From Pseudomonas monteilii (GTDB lineage Bacteria; Pseudomonadota; Gammaproteobacteria; Pseudomonadales; Pseudomonadaceae): DNA of 64,000 nt. The first letter of the stretch is position 1. Each line of letters begins with the position of its first letter. This document shows, piece after piece, positions 24,109-43,157 of the stretch. Location: positions 248,001 through 312,000 of the forward strand of contig CP013997.1 of NCBI GenBank assembly GCA_001534745.1, read 5' to 3'. The notes under the pieces are model-generated. The model saw only the letters and a program-made list of their open reading frames with translations. It was not told the DNA's origin and made no database searches. Both the position numbers and the translations under genes were made by a program.

Positions 24109-24126
24109 ACTGACAAATTTGCCAGT
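24109..24126 (+). promoter_or_regulatory. RHS-associated palindromic element (copy E)
   Basis: ACTGACAAATTTGCCAGT is palindromic in 8 of 9 base pairs and lies 50 bases before the RHS mini-gene ATG. Related 18-bp copies sit upstream of all four RHS mini-genes or fragments at 39.6-43.0 kb. An operator or a mobility-linked signature are both possible. Confidence 0.6.
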
Positions 24127-24176
24127 TGCACGCATTTCTCAGCGTTGCAAAATGGTCAGCACCATGGAGCGACGCA

Positions 24177-25061
24177 ATGATGACCACTTTCTTGCTGGCG
24201 ACTAATATGCAGGGTTCTGTGCTGGGGGGCAGCGGCTTTCCTCATAGAAGCTACCCTCCCTACGGGGCATTACTCACCACTTCCGGGCCTCGCTTGGCCT
24301 TCACAGGCCAGCCGAGAGATCCTCTGACCGGTTGCTATCATCTTGGCAATGGGCGACGTCAGTTCAACCCCCGCACGCGGCGTTTCAACAGCCCTGATTG
24401 TTCGAGCCCTTTTGCCAGGGGCGGATTGAATGCCTACAGCTATTGCGCAGGGGATCCCCTCAACCGTGTTGACCCCACGGGTGCGTACTTCCAGTTTGTC
24501 ATCAACGCTGCGAGAATTCTTGCCCCCGCGTCCACGTTGTTTGGTGCGGTGCTGCGTACGGCAAGAAATGTCATCGGGCGCATGCAGCCCGGCGCCGCCA
24601 CCTTCCCAGATCCGCATGTCTCCACGCGTGTCGGCAACGCCCAGTACATGGTGTCAGGTGCTACAGGCATAGCAGCGCAGACGCTCAATGTCGTTAGTAT
24701 GGGCCTTGGAGCGGCTGACCTGTCGTCGCCCGTGACGTGGCTCAATTTTGCCAACAATGTGGGAACGATCAGTGCCTCGGTTTCAGCTAACTTCTTGGCT
24801 GGACGCGACGTCTACCGCTACTTGCGCAGTCACCCTGGGCAACTGGGGAGAGTGGCGGGAGAAACGTTATTGGAATTGACGTTCGTTGACGAGACATTGT
24901 CTGCCGTAGCCAGAGGCGTGACCGCAGCGGGGCGGCGAGTCTTTGATGCAGGACGCAGGATTCAGCAGTTTGGACATGACATGCTGCAGCGCACTTTGCG
25001 TGCCGAGGGTGAACAACCACCCTCGATTTCGCTGAGTAACCTGTCCATTCGAACTGGCTAG
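24177..25061 (+). CDS. RHS-core orphan mini-protein (294 aa)
   Basis: This is a stand-alone RHS-repeat-associated core with no upstream YD repeats. The start at 24177 follows GGAGCGA. The core signature is complete: LLATNMQGSVL (5-16), LAFTGQPRDPLTG (about 41-53), YHLGNGRRQFNPRTRRFNSP, FARGGLNAYSYCAGDPLNRV, ending in DPTG near residue 103. What follows is a unique C-terminal region of about 190 residues, rich in Ala/Gly and hydrophobic stretches (GATGIAAQTLNVVSMGLGAADL), with no toxin motif I recognise. Full-length RHS proteins deliver C-terminal toxins; what orphan cores do is unclear. It is less GC-rich than its neighbours etfB and gbcA, which suggests insertion into the cluster. Confidence 0.82.
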   Translation: MMTTFLLATNMQGSVLGGSGFPHRSYPPYGALLTTSGPRLAFTGQPRDPLTGCYHLGNGRRQFNPRTRRFNSPDCSSPFARGGLNAYSYCAGDPLNRVDPTGAYFQFVINAARILAPASTLFGAVLRTARNVIGRMQPGAATFPDPHVSTRVGNAQYMVSGATGIAAQTLNVVSMGLGAADLSSPVTWLNFANNVGTISASVSANFLAGRDVYRYLRSHPGQLGRVAGETLLELTFVDETLSAVARGVTAAGRRVFDAGRRIQQFGHDMLQRTLRAEGEQPPSISLSNLSIRTG

Positions 25062-38310: not shown

Positions 38311-39510
38311 ATGTCAGGCAATCGTGGAGTGGTGTATCTCGGCGCCGGCAAGGTCGAGGTGCAGAAGATCGACTACCCGAAAATGCAGGACCCACGTGGC
38401 AAGAAAATCGAGCACGGGGTGATCCTCAAGGTGGTCTCCACCAACATCTGCGGCTCCGACCAGCACATGGTCCGCGGCCGCACCACTGCCCAGGTCGGCC
38501 TGGTCCTGGGTCACGAAATCACCGGTGAAATCGTCGAGAAGGGCAGCGACGTCGAGCGCATGCAGATCGGCGACCTGGTCTCGGTGCCGTTCAACGTTGC
38601 CTGCGGCCGTTGTCGCTCCTGCAAGGAAATGCACACCGGTGTCTGCCTCACCGTCAACCCGGCCCGCGCCGGGGGCGCCTACGGCTATGTGGACATGGGT
38701 GACTGGACCGGCGGCCAGGCCGAATACGTGCTGGTGCCGTACGCCGACTTCAACCTGCTGAAACTGCCCGAGCGCGACAAGGCCATGGAAAAGATCCGTG
38801 ACCTGACCTGCTTGTCCGACATCCTGCCGACCGGCTACCACGGCGCCGTGACCGCGGGCGTCGGCCCAGGCAGCACCGTCTACGTCGCCGGTGCCGGTCC
38901 GGTCGGCCTGGCCGCTGCCGCCTCGGCTCGCCTCCTGGGCGCCGCCTGCGTGATCGTCGGCGACCTCAACCCGGCTCGTCTGGCCCACGCCAAGTCGCAA
39001 GGCTTTGAAGTGGTCGACCTGTCCAAGGACACCCCGCTGCACGAGCAGATCGTCGACATCCTCGGCGAGCCGGAAGTGGACTGCGCGGTCGATGCCGTCG
39101 GCTTCGAGGCCCGTGGCCATGGCCATGAAGGCGCCAAGCACGAAGCCCCGGCCACGGTGCTGAACTCGCTGATGCAAGTGACCCGCGTGGCCGGCAGCAT
39201 CGGTATCCCGGGCCTGTACGTGACCGAGGACCCGGGCGCATCGGATGCCGCCGCCAAGATCGGCGCCCTGAGCATCCGCTTCGGCCTGGGCTGGGCCAAG
39301 TCGCACAGCTTCCACACCGGCCAGACCCCTACCATGAAATACAACCGTCAGCTGATGCAGGCGATCATGTGGGACCGGATCAACATCGCCGAGGTGGTGG
39401 GCGTGCAGGTGATCAACCTCGACCAGGCACCGCAAGGCTATGGCGAGTTCGATGCCGGGGTGCCGAAGAAATTCGTGATCGACCCGCACAAGATGTGGGG
39501 CGCGGCGTGA
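38311..39510 (+). CDS. fdhA: Glutathione-independent formaldehyde dehydrogenase
   Basis: FdhA oxidises formaldehyde to formate with tightly bound NAD and needs no glutathione. The 399-residue protein is a zinc-type medium-chain dehydrogenase. The catalytic zinc ligands are Cys47 (NICGSDQH) and His68 (GHEI), and the structural zinc ligands are Cys98, Cys101, Cys104 and Cys112 (CGRCRSCKEMHTGVC). The nucleotide fold is VYVAGAGPVGLAAAASARLL. It detoxifies formaldehyde from GbcAB, DgcAB and Sox activity and ends the cluster, as in P. aeruginosa (PA5421). A decayed partial copy lies at 41889-42135. Confidence 0.95.
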   Translation: MSGNRGVVYLGAGKVEVQKIDYPKMQDPRGKKIEHGVILKVVSTNICGSDQHMVRGRTTAQVGLVLGHEITGEIVEKGSDVERMQIGDLVSVPFNVACGRCRSCKEMHTGVCLTVNPARAGGAYGYVDMGDWTGGQAEYVLVPYADFNLLKLPERDKAMEKIRDLTCLSDILPTGYHGAVTAGVGPGSTVYVAGAGPVGLAAAASARLLGAACVIVGDLNPARLAHAKSQGFEVVDLSKDTPLHEQIVDILGEPEVDCAVDAVGFEARGHGHEGAKHEAPATVLNSLMQVTRVAGSIGIPGLYVTEDPGASDAAAKIGALSIRFGLGWAKSHSFHTGQTPTMKYNRQLMQAIMWDRINIAEVVGVQVINLDQAPQGYGEFDAGVPKKFVIDPHKMWGAA

Positions 39511-39533: not shown

Positions 39534-39558
39534 AGCCCCTCGCATCGAGGGGCTTTTT
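39534..39558 (+). terminator. Terminator of fdhA
   Basis: AGCCCCTCG-CAT-CGAGGGGCT forms a perfect 9-bp stem with a 3-base loop, followed by TTTT. It abuts the end of the RHS fragment on the other strand. Confidence 0.9.
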
Positions 39559-39767
39559 CATGGCTGCTCGTCTGGGTGTTGCACGACGAGGACCGAGCCT
39601 TTGTCGTCGGTGGCCAGCAGGCCGTTGGTTCGGGGGGCGTTGGCGCTCACTTCAGCCAACGGCTGTTCTGCAGTGCGGAAGATAGTGCGATGCTGACCGC
39701 CCTGACTCACGGTGATCAGCTTGCCGGCTTGATAGAAGAAAAGCGAGCAGTTCGAGGCTTTGCTCAT
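39558..39767 (-). pseudogene. RHS-core mini-gene, N-terminal fragment (copy A)
   Basis: These 69 codons read FFYQAGKLITV, IFRTAEQPLAEV and GLLATDDKGSVL. They match, in order, the start of RHS-core orphans and the first part of copy D (FYQAGHLATEL...VDQANSVL). The frame stops right after GSVL, before the YG...FNGE...DPLTG core, so everything that defines the fold is missing. The break coincides with the fdhA terminator. The truncated gene still has its upstream palindrome (39842). Confidence 0.72.
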
Positions 39768-39841
39768 GATTCAAATTCCCATTGGGCTAGGTGAAGGGAG
39801 ACTGCATGGAGTCTATTCTGAGCGCCCGTAGGGATTTTGAT

Positions 39842-39859
39842 ACTGGCAGAAATGACAGT
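39842..39859 (-). promoter_or_regulatory. RHS-associated palindromic element (copy A)
   Basis: ACTGGCAGAAATGACAGT on the plus strand lies 74 bases upstream of RHS fragment A. It matches the reverse complement of copy E at 14 of 18 positions. Confidence 0.55.
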
Positions 39860-39991
39860 TCATGGGCTGCTGTGATCTCTGTGGGGTTTCGTACAGCTTT
39901 GCCAAGAATTTCAGCCAACCTTGTCGGCGATTATAGTTACAGCAGTTTTCGAACTAAGTCTACGGTCACGTTGAAGACATGATTTTTCGTC

Positions 39992-40771
39992 TTAATTATA
40001 AAGCAGGCCTCGGATGCGGTCGCGATGTTGCCGAATGTTCTCTAGGTTTCGAGTTAAATAGTCAGGAACAGAAATTCCAGTTCTGCGCATTGCTCTGATG
40101 TTTCTTCTGATTCTTTCGGCCCTAGCCGATTCCTCTTGGAGCTCAGTCCGATATCTTTCAACCCGTTCGGGAGGGAGCGAAGTTTTTATGTGAGGGCGAG
40201 CAGGAAGTCTTTCATACTTTGGTGGGGGCGGTGGTTCTATACGTGCACCGGAAGGAGTCAACGTTGGAACTACTGCGCGCGTATGGCCTTTGGGTAACCG
40301 CCTGGAATAGGGGGGGAGGTGACCTGGATTATAATTGGGTGGCGAAACAGGAGATGAAAAGGCGTGAGGACTCGACGAGAAGTAGGGGGGCGCGTCCATT
40401 GAAGAAGGCGTGATGACATGAGCTGGGCTATCGAGGTTCATCAGGAGTTGTGAACGTGTTTGCATTTTTGGTTTCAAACGTCTCAAGACTCGAACGCTAG
40501 CTTTGAAATGGCCTGTAGGGTCAGTGTAATTAGTGGGATCGCCGTTGTTGTAACTGTAGGTGTTAAGACCTCCTGCGCCAAAAGGAGCTAGGATGTCTGG
40601 TGCGGTATAACGCATTAAGGCCGCGCTGTACGGTCTATACCCTGCACCTAATATATATAGCCCTGTAAGAAGATCAAGGGGTTCGCCATTAAATGACAGC
40701 AGGCTTGATTTGTCGAAGCAAAGAGGCGTGTAGCCATAGGTTGTATAATTATGTGTGAGATTATTTGTCAT
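39992..40771 (-). CDS. RHS-core orphan mini-protein (259 aa, copy B)
   Basis: This short-start RHS core begins MTNNLTHNYTTYGYTP. It then has LLSFNGEPLDLLTG, YILGAGYRPYSAALMRYTAP and FGAGGLNTYSYNNGDPTNYT, with DPTG near residue 86. The unique C-terminal part is basic and proline-rich (PPYSRRLPKGHTRAVVP, EPPPPPKYERLPARP), ending in a charged helical segment (ERVERYRTELQEESARAERI...ENIRQHRDRIRGLL). No nuclease or other toxin motif is recognised. It is clearly AT-richer than the flanking chromosome, and its ribosome site is weak. It may be expressed or a relic; the frame is intact. Confidence 0.7.
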   Translation of the reverse strand: MTNNLTHNYTTYGYTPLCFDKSSLLSFNGEPLDLLTGLYILGAGYRPYSAALMRYTAPDILAPFGAGGLNTYSYNNGDPTNYTDPTGHFKASVRVLRRLKPKMQTRSQLLMNLDSPAHVITPSSMDAPPYFSSSPHAFSSPVSPPNYNPGHLPPYSRRLPKGHTRAVVPTLTPSGARIEPPPPPKYERLPARPHIKTSLPPERVERYRTELQEESARAERIRRNIRAMRRTGISVPDYLTRNLENIRQHRDRIRGLLYN

Positions 40772-40842
40772 TGGAAAGTACCGTTAAGTCCCAAGGGTTA
40801 CGGGCTTAGTCTCCAGTGTTTGGGAAAAATAGTGATGGCGCT

Positions 40843-40860
40843 ACTGGCAGAAATGTCAGG
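40843..40860 (-). promoter_or_regulatory. RHS-associated palindromic element (copy B)
   Basis: ACTGGCAGAAATGTCAGG (plus strand) lies 71 bases upstream of RHS copy B. The first 13 bases are identical to copies A and C. Confidence 0.55.
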
Positions 40861-41089
40861 AGGCGTTATCACGGCTACGCGTTTCGGTGGCCCCGTCATG
40901 ACCGGTCTGAAGAAAAACCTTGAAGGTTTAAGGGGGCACTCATCTCCGGGGGCATGTTGGCCGACAGGAGGCCACAAAACCAATTTCAGGTACTTATAGC
41001 CCAGGCCAGCCTAATCAATGCCCTAGTGTGGTGTTTCAGAAGTATCACTAAACATTTGGTCTATGCTCTCTAGACGTTCACTATCCAGG

Positions 41090-41329
41090 GTATCGACCGT
41101 GGAAAAGACCTTCAAGCTTTCTACTGATCCGTTGTTTGTCGACAAGGTGCACGACAGCGTTGGGCTTTACTTGAACCCACCCGAACGAGCCTTGGTGCTG
41201 TGCGTCGATGAGAAGAGTCAGATCCAAGCATTAAACCGCACGCAGCCCGGCTTACCGCTTTCCCCCGGTAACCCTGCAACCCGCACATATAACCACAAAC
41301 GACACGGTTGGAGTTATTTCGCGGGTTGA
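41090..41329 (+). pseudogene. IS630-family transposase remnant
   Basis: A plus-strand frame carries [39 protein letters not shown] and [17 protein letters not shown], then a KRHG motif. This is the start of the IS630 DDE domain (first catalytic Asp in VDEKSQ). The rest of the transposase and both inverted ends are missing; the frame stops shortly after KRHG. About 220 bases of gene remain. The stretch 40861-41090 just upstream shows nothing I can assign. Confidence 0.75.
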
Positions 41330-41790
41330 GCTCAGCATGGCACATCTGGCTTCGTGTAGTTCAAATGTGGAAGCCTTGAGCACGTATTTATTGTGGAGAT
41401 CATTCAAATCCTTCAGAAACTCTGCTTCGAAGGATCTAGCCATCAAGCGTGTGGGTGGCGTCGGTAACGTGAGCTCGGGCCCCTGTTTGGGTAACCGGAG
41501 CACAGGCGGTTTCTTCAAAGGGTACAGGAAAAATGTCCCGTAGGATCGGTGCGATTTACAGGGTCTCCTGAACAGTAGGCGTAGGTATTTATGCCGTCAT
41601 CACCAGAAAGACTCAGGCTGTCAGGTGAAATGAAGTGCATTGATTGAGTGTCGTAAGCTCTAAAGCTCAGTATAGAGAGCGTCGTCACGGGGCGTGGGTG
41701 TTCTCCGTTGAATCCAATCAGGTGTTCTGTTGATTGGATTGTTGTGGGGAAGCCATAAGTTAAGTAAGCATGCGTGCCATAGGTATTCAT
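41252..41790 (-). pseudogene. RHS-core mini-gene broken by a frameshift (copy C)
   Basis: The first frame (41790-41515) reads YLTYGFPTTI, LIGFNGEHPRPVT, FISPDSLSLSGDDGINTYAY and NRTDPTGHF, then stops. The core is degenerate (SILSFRAYDTQ in place of YLLGNGYRxYxP). The adjoining frame (41518-41252) continues with KKPPVLRLPKQGPEL and a charged helix FEAEFLKDLNDLHNKYV, which looks like the lost C-terminal region. One frameshift would join them. It has the same short-start layout as copy B and has its palindrome at 41879. Confidence 0.62.
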
Positions 41791-41878
41791 GCGACTTTGC
41801 TCGCTGTCAGAGAAACCGTTGTTTTCTCTCTGTCACCACGCCCGTGTCTCGCTATGTTTATTACTTGCGCATGGCGGA

Positions 41879-41896
41879 ACTGGCAGAAATGAAAGG
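41879..41896 (-). promoter_or_regulatory. RHS-associated palindromic element (copy C)
   Basis: ACTGGCAGAAATGAAAGG (plus strand) lies 88 bases upstream of RHS copy C and touches the fdhA remnant. The left arm is intact, the right arm decayed. Confidence 0.5.
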
Positions 41897-42135
41897 TGGC
41901 AGGCCAACTCTATACTCGTGCGGTACGCCGACATTCAACCTGCCAAACTGCGGAAAGGCCAGGGAGGCGATCCGTGATCTGCCCGTTCGATATCCCTCCG
42001 GCCAGCTACCACGGTGCTGTCGCCGCGAACGTAGGCCTGGGCGGCACCGTCTATGTCGCCGCTGAGGCCCGCCTGCTCGGCGCTGCCGTGGTGATCGTCG
42101 GCGACCTAAAGCTGGCGCACCCGGCGCAGCGGTAA
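41889..42135 (+). pseudogene. Decayed partial second copy of fdhA
   Basis: Split over two frames, this matches fdhA residues about 134-225. GQANSILVRYADIQPAKL corresponds to GQAEYVLVPYADFNLLKL; then, after a frameshift, PPASYHGAVAANVGLGGTVYV corresponds to PTGYHGAVTAGVGPGSTVYV, and ARLLGAAVVIVGDLK to ARLLGAACVIVGDLN. The GAGPVGLAAAAS loop is deleted. No zinc ligands remain. The intact fdhA lies 2.4 kb away in the same orientation. Confidence 0.8.
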
Positions 42136-42996
42136 TCAGGGTCCCTTCCGGATTCCCTCAAGTGCTTGATTCAACATATCAACGCGTTGCATTGCTTTTT
42201 TTACCTGCCCGGTTAATTGCGAAAAACTGTTTGCTTCAGCTGTGCGCCCGAGGTTTAGATCTTTCCGACGTTTCAGCTGGGAATAGGCATACTCAAGTTG
42301 TTCTTTAAGGAGGCTAAGCTCTTTTTGAGCTTCTCTTCTGTGGGACAATAAGGTTTTTTCTATACTTTCCGTCTGCAGGTTGCGGCCACTGGTTGCTTGA
42401 CGACTGCCTTCTGAGAGCCGTTGACCTGAGGACCGTTCTGGAAGCGGTCTTGTGCGTGTAGTGACAGGTGATTGCTCTTGGGAAGTGAACTTCTTTAAAA
42501 CAGGCGGTGGGGTTTTGCCTTTAGGTGTTCTTAGGCGTAAACGGTTAGCCGCGCCCTTGAAAAAGCTCCGAATGAATTGCGGAACGTTTCCAGAGGGATC
42601 CATTTTATTGATGGGGTCATTATTGCAGTAAGCATATGCATTAAGCCCGCCTTGGTCAAATGGACTAAGTAGGTCAGGGCTGGAGAAACGAAAAAGTGTC
42701 GGATGGTAGGTCCGATTTCCGTTGCCCAATGCGTAGGTTCTTGTCAGAGGGTCAAGGCGTTGCCCGTTAAATGCGAGTATCGCTGTTGACTGTCCTGCTT
42801 CAAAAAAACCATAGGCTGCGTAAGTCGTCTTGTCAGGCACTTTGTTGAGAACAGAGTTGGCTTGGTCAACGTGCAGTATGTGAGCGGCCTTACCTGGATC
42901 GAGTTGCGCTATGACAGTGGTGTGTGATCGCACTATGTGGCGAATACCTTTATCAGAAAGCTCAGTTGCCAAGTGGCCAGCTTGGTAAAAGAGCAT
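42136..42996 (-). CDS. RHS-core orphan mini-protein (286 aa, copy D)
   Basis: This is the most complete RHS-core orphan here. The ATG at 42996 has a textbook ribosome site (AGGAGATACT), better than upstream in-frame ATGs. It reads MLFYQAGHLATEL, IVRSHTTVIAQL, VDQANSVL, YGFFEAGQSTAILAFNGQRL, DPLTRTYALGNGNRTYHP, FDQGGLNAYAYCNNDPINKM and DPSGN. The C-terminal part has a basic Pro/Ser/Thr-rich linker, then a coiled coil (LSHRREAQKELSLLKEQLEY...KKAMQRVDMLNQALEGI). No enzyme motif is recognised. Its 3' end abuts the fdhA remnant. It is AT-richer than neighbouring genes. Confidence 0.78.
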   Translation of the reverse strand: MLFYQAGHLATELSDKGIRHIVRSHTTVIAQLDPGKAAHILHVDQANSVLNKVPDKTTYAAYGFFEAGQSTAILAFNGQRLDPLTRTYALGNGNRTYHPTLFRFSSPDLLSPFDQGGLNAYAYCNNDPINKMDPSGNVPQFIRSFFKGAANRLRLRTPKGKTPPPVLKKFTSQEQSPVTTRTRPLPERSSGQRLSEGSRQATSGRNLQTESIEKTLLSHRREAQKELSLLKEQLEYAYSQLKRRKDLNLGRTAEANSFSQLTGQVKKAMQRVDMLNQALEGIRKGP

Positions 42997-43139
42997 AGTA
43001 TCTCCTTCCGGCGGCGTTCCCGATGTGGTGGCCAGGGCGCTCAGGCGTGGGGGGTGTTTTTCATTATGGGTCGTCATGACGTCGAGGCTCATGAAGCGAG
43101 AGAAGGCTTTCAATCTGCACGACCGCGCACGTGGCCACA

Positions 43140-43157
43140 ACTGACACATTTGCCAGG
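43140..43157. promoter_or_regulatory. RHS-associated palindromic element (copy D)
   Basis: ACTGACACATTTGCCAGG lies 143 bases upstream of copy D. Its asymmetry is reversed relative to the other copies, so it may belong to a lost plus-strand gene. Confidence 0.45.

Follow-up and report, generated by a model that had tools for sequence, protein, structure and literature searches.

The window analysed here, a 64-kb stretch of Pseudomonas monteilii DNA (C1:248001-312000 of the single-contig 4.71-Mb genome G000), holds five orphan mini-genes or gene fragments of the RHS-core family, each with an 18-bp near-palindrome upstream. This box is very probably a lux-box-like operator of a LuxR-type activator, which would make the orphan RHS mini-genes one regulon. 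A CT-N12-AG dyad precedes most such Pseudomonas genes examined, with a constant spacing to a predicted -10 hexamer, and it is nearly absent before other RHS genes. The original prediction had offered two readings of the element, a common operator and a recombination signature; the first is supported by the results described below and the second in part, and the lux-box form of the element is a point beyond it.

The box in the window and in its own genome

All five elements were found where the original prediction had placed them. The box is a lux-box-like dyad, CTRNYA-N4-TRNYAG, with the refined consensus NCTRNYANNNNTRNYAGN, which occurs at four places only in the window (24109, 39842, 40843 and 43140), each before an RHS orphan. 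The earlier 18-bp pattern, allowed up to three mismatches, gives 11 window matches, nine of which are the five sites read on one or both strands; the expectation for that pattern is 1.27, and 11 matches were reached in 0 of 100 shuffles. The features of the window are as follows, the boxes on the minus strand being given in gene sense.

24109..24126, plus strand: operator E0, lux-box-like, ACTGACAAATTTGCCAGT, exact to NCTRNYANNNNTRNYAGN
24148..24153, plus strand: predicted -10 CAAAAT of the E0 gene; A-N3-T at +23 from the box end (row L040), 1 base nearer than usual
24177..25061, plus strand: RHS-core mini-gene with its own C-terminal region (TIGR03696, E 4.4e-18)
39558..39767, minus strand: gene A, a 69-codon fragment from the N-terminal region of the family (match to positions 4-58 of profile A1, E 3e-8)
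39815..39820, minus strand: predicted -10 CAGAAT of gene A, by eye, 1 base nearer than usual
39842..39859, minus strand: operator EA, lux-box-like, ACTGTCATTTCTGCCAGT, exact to the consensus
39992..40771, minus strand: gene B, RHS-core mini-gene of 259 aa (TIGR03696, E 4.3e-16)
40815..40820, minus strand: predicted -10 AACACT of gene B, at the usual +23..+28 spacing
40843..40860, minus strand: operator EB, lux-box-like, CCTGACATTTCTGCCAGT, exact to the consensus
41515..41790, minus strand: gene C, open reading frame (ORF) of 91 aa, RHS core with almost no C-terminal region (TIGR03696, E 2.8e-18)
41879..41896, minus strand: operator EC, degenerate, CCTTTCATTTCTGCCAGT, 1 mismatch to the consensus
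42136..42996, minus strand: gene D, RHS-core mini-gene, likely start at the ATG of MLFYQAGHL, taken from the family alignment (TIGR03696, E 1.4e-18 on the longer ORF)
43112..43117, minus strand: predicted -10 CAGATT of gene D, at the usual spacing
43140..43157, minus strand: operator ED, lux-box-like, CCTGGCAAATGTGTCAGT, exact to the consensus

The element coordinates of the original prediction stand unchanged, and its gene descriptions are corrected at three points: gene A is a 69-codon fragment, gene C has 91 codons, and the coding part of gene D most likely begins at 42996, a start preferred because that of the ORF list, 43149, falls inside box ED. A search of six window ORFs against NCBIfam matched the RHS repeat-associated core TIGR03696 in four window genes (E 4.3e-16 to 1.4e-18) and nothing else; gene A gave no TIGR03696 match, and none of the six ORFs had a Pfam match at E<=0.001. 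To judge by eye from the ORF list, the short stretch 41995-42135, lying between genes C and D, is similar to a portion of the dehydrogenase gene at 38311-39510 and could be a copied piece of it.

Over the whole of G000, TIGR03696 gives 27 places at E<=1, 11 of which are orphan mini-genes of the kind described, and fragment A, found by the family profile, is a twelfth family member. Exact NCTRNYANNNNTRNYAGN precedes seven of the 11 within 600 nt upstream of the core, one-mismatch boxes precede gene C and the gene at 3018334, and that at 3176034 has a two-mismatch box with A at +24 and T at +28 by eye, which is not the best-scoring site of that locus. With the exact box of fragment A, 11 of the 12 members carry a box of at most two mismatches. 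No convincing box was seen at 1005554, the second gene of a tandem, where the best candidate, a one-mismatch site 429 nt upstream of the core, lacks a -10. Fifteen of the 16 other RHS-core places were measured, the sixteenth (E 0.79) being left out; none of the 15 has an exact box and three have one with one mismatch.

The check attached to the original prediction, a genome scan with its pattern at three mismatches, gave 88 matches in G000 vs 79 for the reversed control, and this noisy scan is set aside as evidence because the two counts are alike. A motif as frequent away from RHS genes as near them had been named as the outcome that would speak against the prediction. As far as this was checked, the refined motif has 14 exact matches in 386 kb of background, both strands counted, and G000 does contain 13 non-RHS sites within two mismatches of the earlier pattern.

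Occurrence across Pseudomonas

A first set of orphans was collected with the profile A1, made from nine orphans of G000, over 40 genomes of the genus, 60 stretches being fetched from 12 of them. Four of 94 genes were dropped; the exclusions concerned repeats, long genes and those with insufficient upstream sequence, and the final set has 90 rows (88 genes, two G000 genes being counted twice in overlapping loci) from 13 genomes including G000. An exact box lies within 300 nt upstream of the domain in 63 of the 90 rows, and one with at most one mismatch in 73; shuffled windows gave 0.49% exact, two in-gene windows 0/90 each, and the region 600-300 nt upstream 3/89. These first-set counts are in-sample because the consensus was drawn from the same set.

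The second set was obtained with a closer alignment, A2, over named genomes, and covers the best 80 of at least 577 stretches, with 79 loci and 127 genes. Nine repeats of the first set, four long genes and two unclear ones (both with exact boxes) were left out, and 112 orphans were kept; the records, some from genomes shared with the first set, are all Pseudomonas, including P. putida, P. mosselii, P. fluorescens, P. jessenii and P. lundensis. Exact boxes precede 83 of the 112 orphans, and boxes with at most one mismatch 94, as compared to 1/112 exact just inside the gene and 1/109 at 600-300 nt upstream. Among the long RHS genes of relatives, 1/18 has an exact box. The frequency in the second set and the fixed -10 distance support the common operator of one regulon put forward in the original prediction, and the near absence from other RHS genes, both these long ones and the 15 places in G000, favours the same reading. 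A scan of genome contigs with gene D found no relative.

The C-terminal regions, which had been described as unrelated, are broadly so: 190 of them, from 202 rows after 12 short or repeated ones were dropped, fall into 130 clusters with 102 singletons. Three loci (L090, L253 and L397) are tandem mini-gene arrays; in L090 about 13 kb hold six mini-genes, and five of these have a box with no more than one mismatch.

Promoter geometry

When the sites of the first set were aligned on the box in gene sense, 54 of 71 had A at +24 (p 2e-19) and 49 had T at +28 (p 1e-16); the two occur together in 46 of the 71 unique sites, and no other offset between 1 and 76 has the pair in more than 14. The second set displays the same pattern, with A at +24 in 77/94, T at +28 in 73/94 and both in 73/94, whereas no other offset between 1 and 60 exceeds 20. 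Reducing TATAAT to just two of its strongest positions leaves A-N3-T, and because the signature matches these two it is read as a probable -10 hexamer at +23..+28 from the box end. Taking the start about 7 bases after the -10, this fixed distance would place the box centre near -43 from the predicted start, the usual position of a LuxR-type activator; a lux box lies 42.5 nt upstream of the transcription start (PMC7585371). In form, NCTRNYANNNNTRNYAGN is an imperfect dyad of 16-20 bp with CT(N12)AG, the form of the lux box of Pseudomonas aeruginosa (PMC2018727). LexA and other known dyads were considered and set aside because of the consensus shape. A dimeric LuxR-type protein would bind the box just upstream of the -35 and recruit RNA polymerase, in the manner of classical lux-box promoters.

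The box as a possible cassette edge

A second reading, compatible with an operator and possible though unlikely as the main one, takes the box chiefly as the left edge of a mobile or recombining unit of about 600 bp (box, promoter, 5' leader, N-terminus and RHS core) copied between sites, around which variable C-terminal regions and upstream contexts would be exchanged. Comparison of 213 boxed regions gave 619 non-independent pairs homologous across the promoter, and in 507 of these the left end of homology falls between -10 and +17 of the box start. Among 40 close pairs (at least 85% over at least 200 nt), 33 have their right end close to where the RHS core finishes, at +574..+616 counted from the box start; the left end lies at -20..+17 in 17 and beyond -20 upstream in 23. 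Identity also falls sharply upstream of the box in 13 pairs with at least 90% identity at +1..+60, being 0.63 at -10..0, 0.38 at -30..-10 and about 0.3 further up. These shared ends, the sharp fall in identity and the 130 C-terminal clusters are what a copied cassette would leave.

However, the 23 close pairs reach further upstream than such an edge would allow, and a fixed distance to the -10 is unexpected of a pure recombination site. Furthermore, the box flanks in G000 have identities of 0.25 and 0.27, no more than chance, as compared to 0.70 for the box itself, a value raised by how the sites were chosen; the box is thus kept where no shared unit remains. In the relatives, box, promoter, leader, N-terminus and core often appear to form a unit of about 600 bp with changing material on either side. 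Selection on promoter and core alone could explain part of this pattern; it is argued that real exchange probably took place in some cases, because the 13 pairs are alike over the leader and near background upstream. The recombination signature of the original prediction accordingly holds for the left and right ends of many pairs and fails for the pairs that start further upstream and for the flanks in G000.

Candidate regulator

Two genes of G000 carry the autoinducer-binding domain PF03472. One of them stands at the PpoR position (G000:C1:726399-726821), beside fpr and an rRNA methyltransferase gene, both recognised by sequence among the ORFs of locus L054; the same neighbourhood is described for the subgroup A LuxR solos (PMC8546723). 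LuxI (PF00765) was not found in G000, an absence that is believable because the same search over 40 genomes matched 8. The regulator in G000 is likely this LuxR solo, PpoR, although this step is less certain. Since no LuxI was found, the solo would listen to outside signals, namely the N-acyl-homoserine lactones (AHLs) made by neighbours, signals related to these, or one yet to be known; PpoR binds 3-oxo-C6-HSL (PMC2703642).

A survey of 249 genomes classed 55 as orphan-rich (at least three matches at E<=1e-34), a class that includes G132, with only long RHS genes, and G018, with mostly long ones; up to 16 orphan and up to 14 PF03472 candidates were scored per genome, so that matches per genome are lower bounds. 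PF03472 is present in 53/55 orphan-rich vs 160/194 other genomes (Fisher p 0.008, kinship uncorrected). A PpoR-like LuxR (E<=2e-37) occurs in 40 of the 55, and a second LuxR family with a weak autoinducer-binding domain (E<=2e-78; L179, L180, L183 and L198) in ten; the latter adjoins methionine-salvage genes in the three loci viewed, the neighbours being recognised by sequence. The two families never occur in the same orphan-rich genome, and the second, at its methionine-salvage locus, may take the place of PpoR in the species that have it. Neither is found in five of the 55, namely G088, G132, G223, G181 and G201. In G088 a PpoR-like match is split in two frames (G088:C21:117468-118161), with exact boxes kept in 9/10 orphans, and G223 is 73% complete.

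The promoter spacing differs between genomes of the two types. In PpoR-type genomes (64 sites) the A of the -10 lies at +24 in 45, at +25 in eight and at neither in 11, as compared to 12, 21 and two, respectively, of the 35 sites in second-family genomes, where +25 goes with boxes not ending in T in 20 of 21. Such family-linked spacing is the trace that a change of regulator would leave, and kinship could also give it. In G025 one of the five orphans, a boxed one, lies directly after the ppoR and methyltransferase genes.

Points against the operator reading and remaining alternatives

Several observations weigh against the account given above. In the window, EC has no A-N3-T at +23, +24 or +25, and the -10 of E0 and of EA sits 1 base nearer than the usual spacing. 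The 13 non-RHS sites of G000 were read in both orientations; five show A at +24 together with T at +28 in at least one of them, and eight in neither. Across genomes, positions 4 and 15 of the dyad covary (0.78 paired vs 0.47 shuffled), because some genomes use CTG..CAG and others CTA..TAG. As to the regulator, PpoR-like genes are also common in orphan-free genomes across the tree, and the co-occurrence of PpoR and orphans carries little weight for that reason and because kinship is uncorrected. An over-expression array of PpoR in P. putida WCS358, done in minimal medium with one biological sample, listed 62 genes, none of them an RHS gene (PMC2703642); a text search of that paper found neither 'lux box' nor 'rhs'. 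Neither LuxR family was found in G181 and G201, yet boxes of at most one mismatch precede 5/5 orphans in each (two and four exact, respectively). PF03472 was matched at E<=0.01 in 213 genomes, which do not include G181, and its only matches in G201 are near E 1e-3; both genomes are drafts of about 100-120 contigs. These two genomes speak against a simple account resting on the two LuxR families alone and are the chief difficulty.

The same two genomes favour an operator of some regulator outside the autoinducer-binding LuxR family, such as another helix-turn-helix protein conserved in the genus, and the link between a LuxR protein and the box is itself inferential. Such a regulator is nevertheless improbable, as the element agrees with lux boxes in its half-sites, its CT-N12-AG length and its placement with respect to the -10, and the spacing differs by LuxR family, though kinship could give that difference.

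The possibility that the element acts in RNA, as a hairpin of the 5' leader, draws on its near-complementary arms with a 4-nt loop and on the covariation of positions 4 and 15 across genomes. Within genomes, however, the arms do not covary at pairs 4-15, 5-14 and 6-13 (0.78, 0.41 and 0.73 vs 0.76, 0.40 and 0.70 when shuffled), as expected of a protein site and not of an RNA stem, and the predicted -10 lies downstream, so that the element would not be transcribed; the hairpin is very improbable and was set aside. Chance, or simple descent of neighbouring DNA, is hardly credible, for although some pairs, notably in tandem arrays, are recent copies, it would have to account for the 0 of 100 shuffles in the window, the second-set counts and the G000 flanks at background.

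Other boxed genes in G000

The lux-box-like operator also stands before genes of other kinds. A Tc-toxin A gene has a box at 2682323 with a -10 (L408:3824-12193); from the start taken, it encodes 2769 aa with PF18276 (TcB-binding), PF20220, PF18413 and PF03538. No RHS-core place (TIGR03696) lies in the 18 kb around it, TcB itself not having been searched for among the neighbours. The mini-genes, and in G000 this gene, would be switched on together as a polymorphic toxin-like set.

The box and -10 at 1336030 lie at a divergent pair, a fimbrial gene (PF00419) and the 482-aa gene L006, and those at 3905783 precede the 283-aa gene L009. Neither L006 nor L009 has a Pfam or NCBIfam match, and both are possible further members of the regulon. 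Boxes with A at +24 and T at +28 occur also at 4664346 and at 3660183, the latter with only a 73-aa ORF behind it. At about 1322.6 kb (L409:10086-10224), one divergent intergenic region holds three exact boxes, two with a -10, and is flanked by an operon of a 1712-aa RHS gene and a chaperone-usher gene on one side and by a divergent 642-aa gene on the other.

Comparison with known systems

All three components, orphan RHS genes, lux boxes and LuxR solos, are known singly, and no description of their joining, in a lux-box promoter common to orphan RHS mini-genes, was found among the openly licensed PubMed Central papers searched. The wider proposal is of a genus-wide lux-box regulon of polymorphic mini-toxins, in which a portable cassette of about 600 bp, with a LuxR-dependent promoter and the RHS core, would carry ever-changing C-terminal domains, be run by LuxR solos hearing the signals of neighbours, and be shared in G000 with the Tc-toxin A gene and the fimbrial and RHS loci. 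It is tentative and falls somewhat short of being probable. If it is true, bacteria that have no AHL synthase themselves would ready an entire, continually reshuffled arsenal in response to the signals of others. Orphan RHS genes are often regarded as debris or reserve cassettes; a conserved promoter that appears to be a working one speaks for their being expressed as they are.

The boxes resemble those of the las-rhl and lux systems in the CT(N12)AG near-palindrome (PMC2018727) and in their predicted position near 42.5 nt upstream (PMC7585371). They differ in having orphan RHS mini-genes of many Pseudomonas as targets, in that no LuxI was found in G000, and in that the regulator is putative. 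The candidate shares with PpoR of P. putida and the subgroup A fluorescent pseudomonads the fpr and rRNA methyltransferase flanks (PMC8546723), whereas the target tables published for PpoR hold no RHS gene (PMC2703642). LuxR solos are widespread in fluorescent pseudomonads, and the mechanism of the PpoR group is stated to remain unknown (PMC8546723); with a binding-site consensus and a target family, it becomes directly testable. In P. chlororaphis PA23, a phz box, a lux-box-like site, lies before an operon with a 'Type IV secretion protein Rhs' gene (PMC7048289); that is a longer operon with phosphatase and kinase genes rather than a set of orphan mini-genes, and the printed site departs by eye from NCTRNYANNNNTRNYAGN.

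With the orphan rhs genes and polymorphic toxins of the contact-dependent inhibition (CDI) and Rhs systems, the mini-genes share an RHS-associated core followed by a variable C-terminal region, and C-terminal displacement and toxin cassettes are known for Rhs and CDI (PMC2935791, PMC3967940, PMC3482391). The present orphans differ in that they retain promoters of their own that share an operator, and they occur either scattered or in tandem arrays. Compared with the Tc toxins, the mini-genes lack the length to hold the long RHS repeat shell; in the PDB, the family profile matches an Rhs-family chain (E 1.3e-6) as well as TcdB2-TccC3 chains (E about 1.3e-4), and the Tc-toxin A gene of G000 has the same box and -10 as the mini-genes. 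This common promoter ties the orphan RHS genes to a Tc-toxin gene in one strain.

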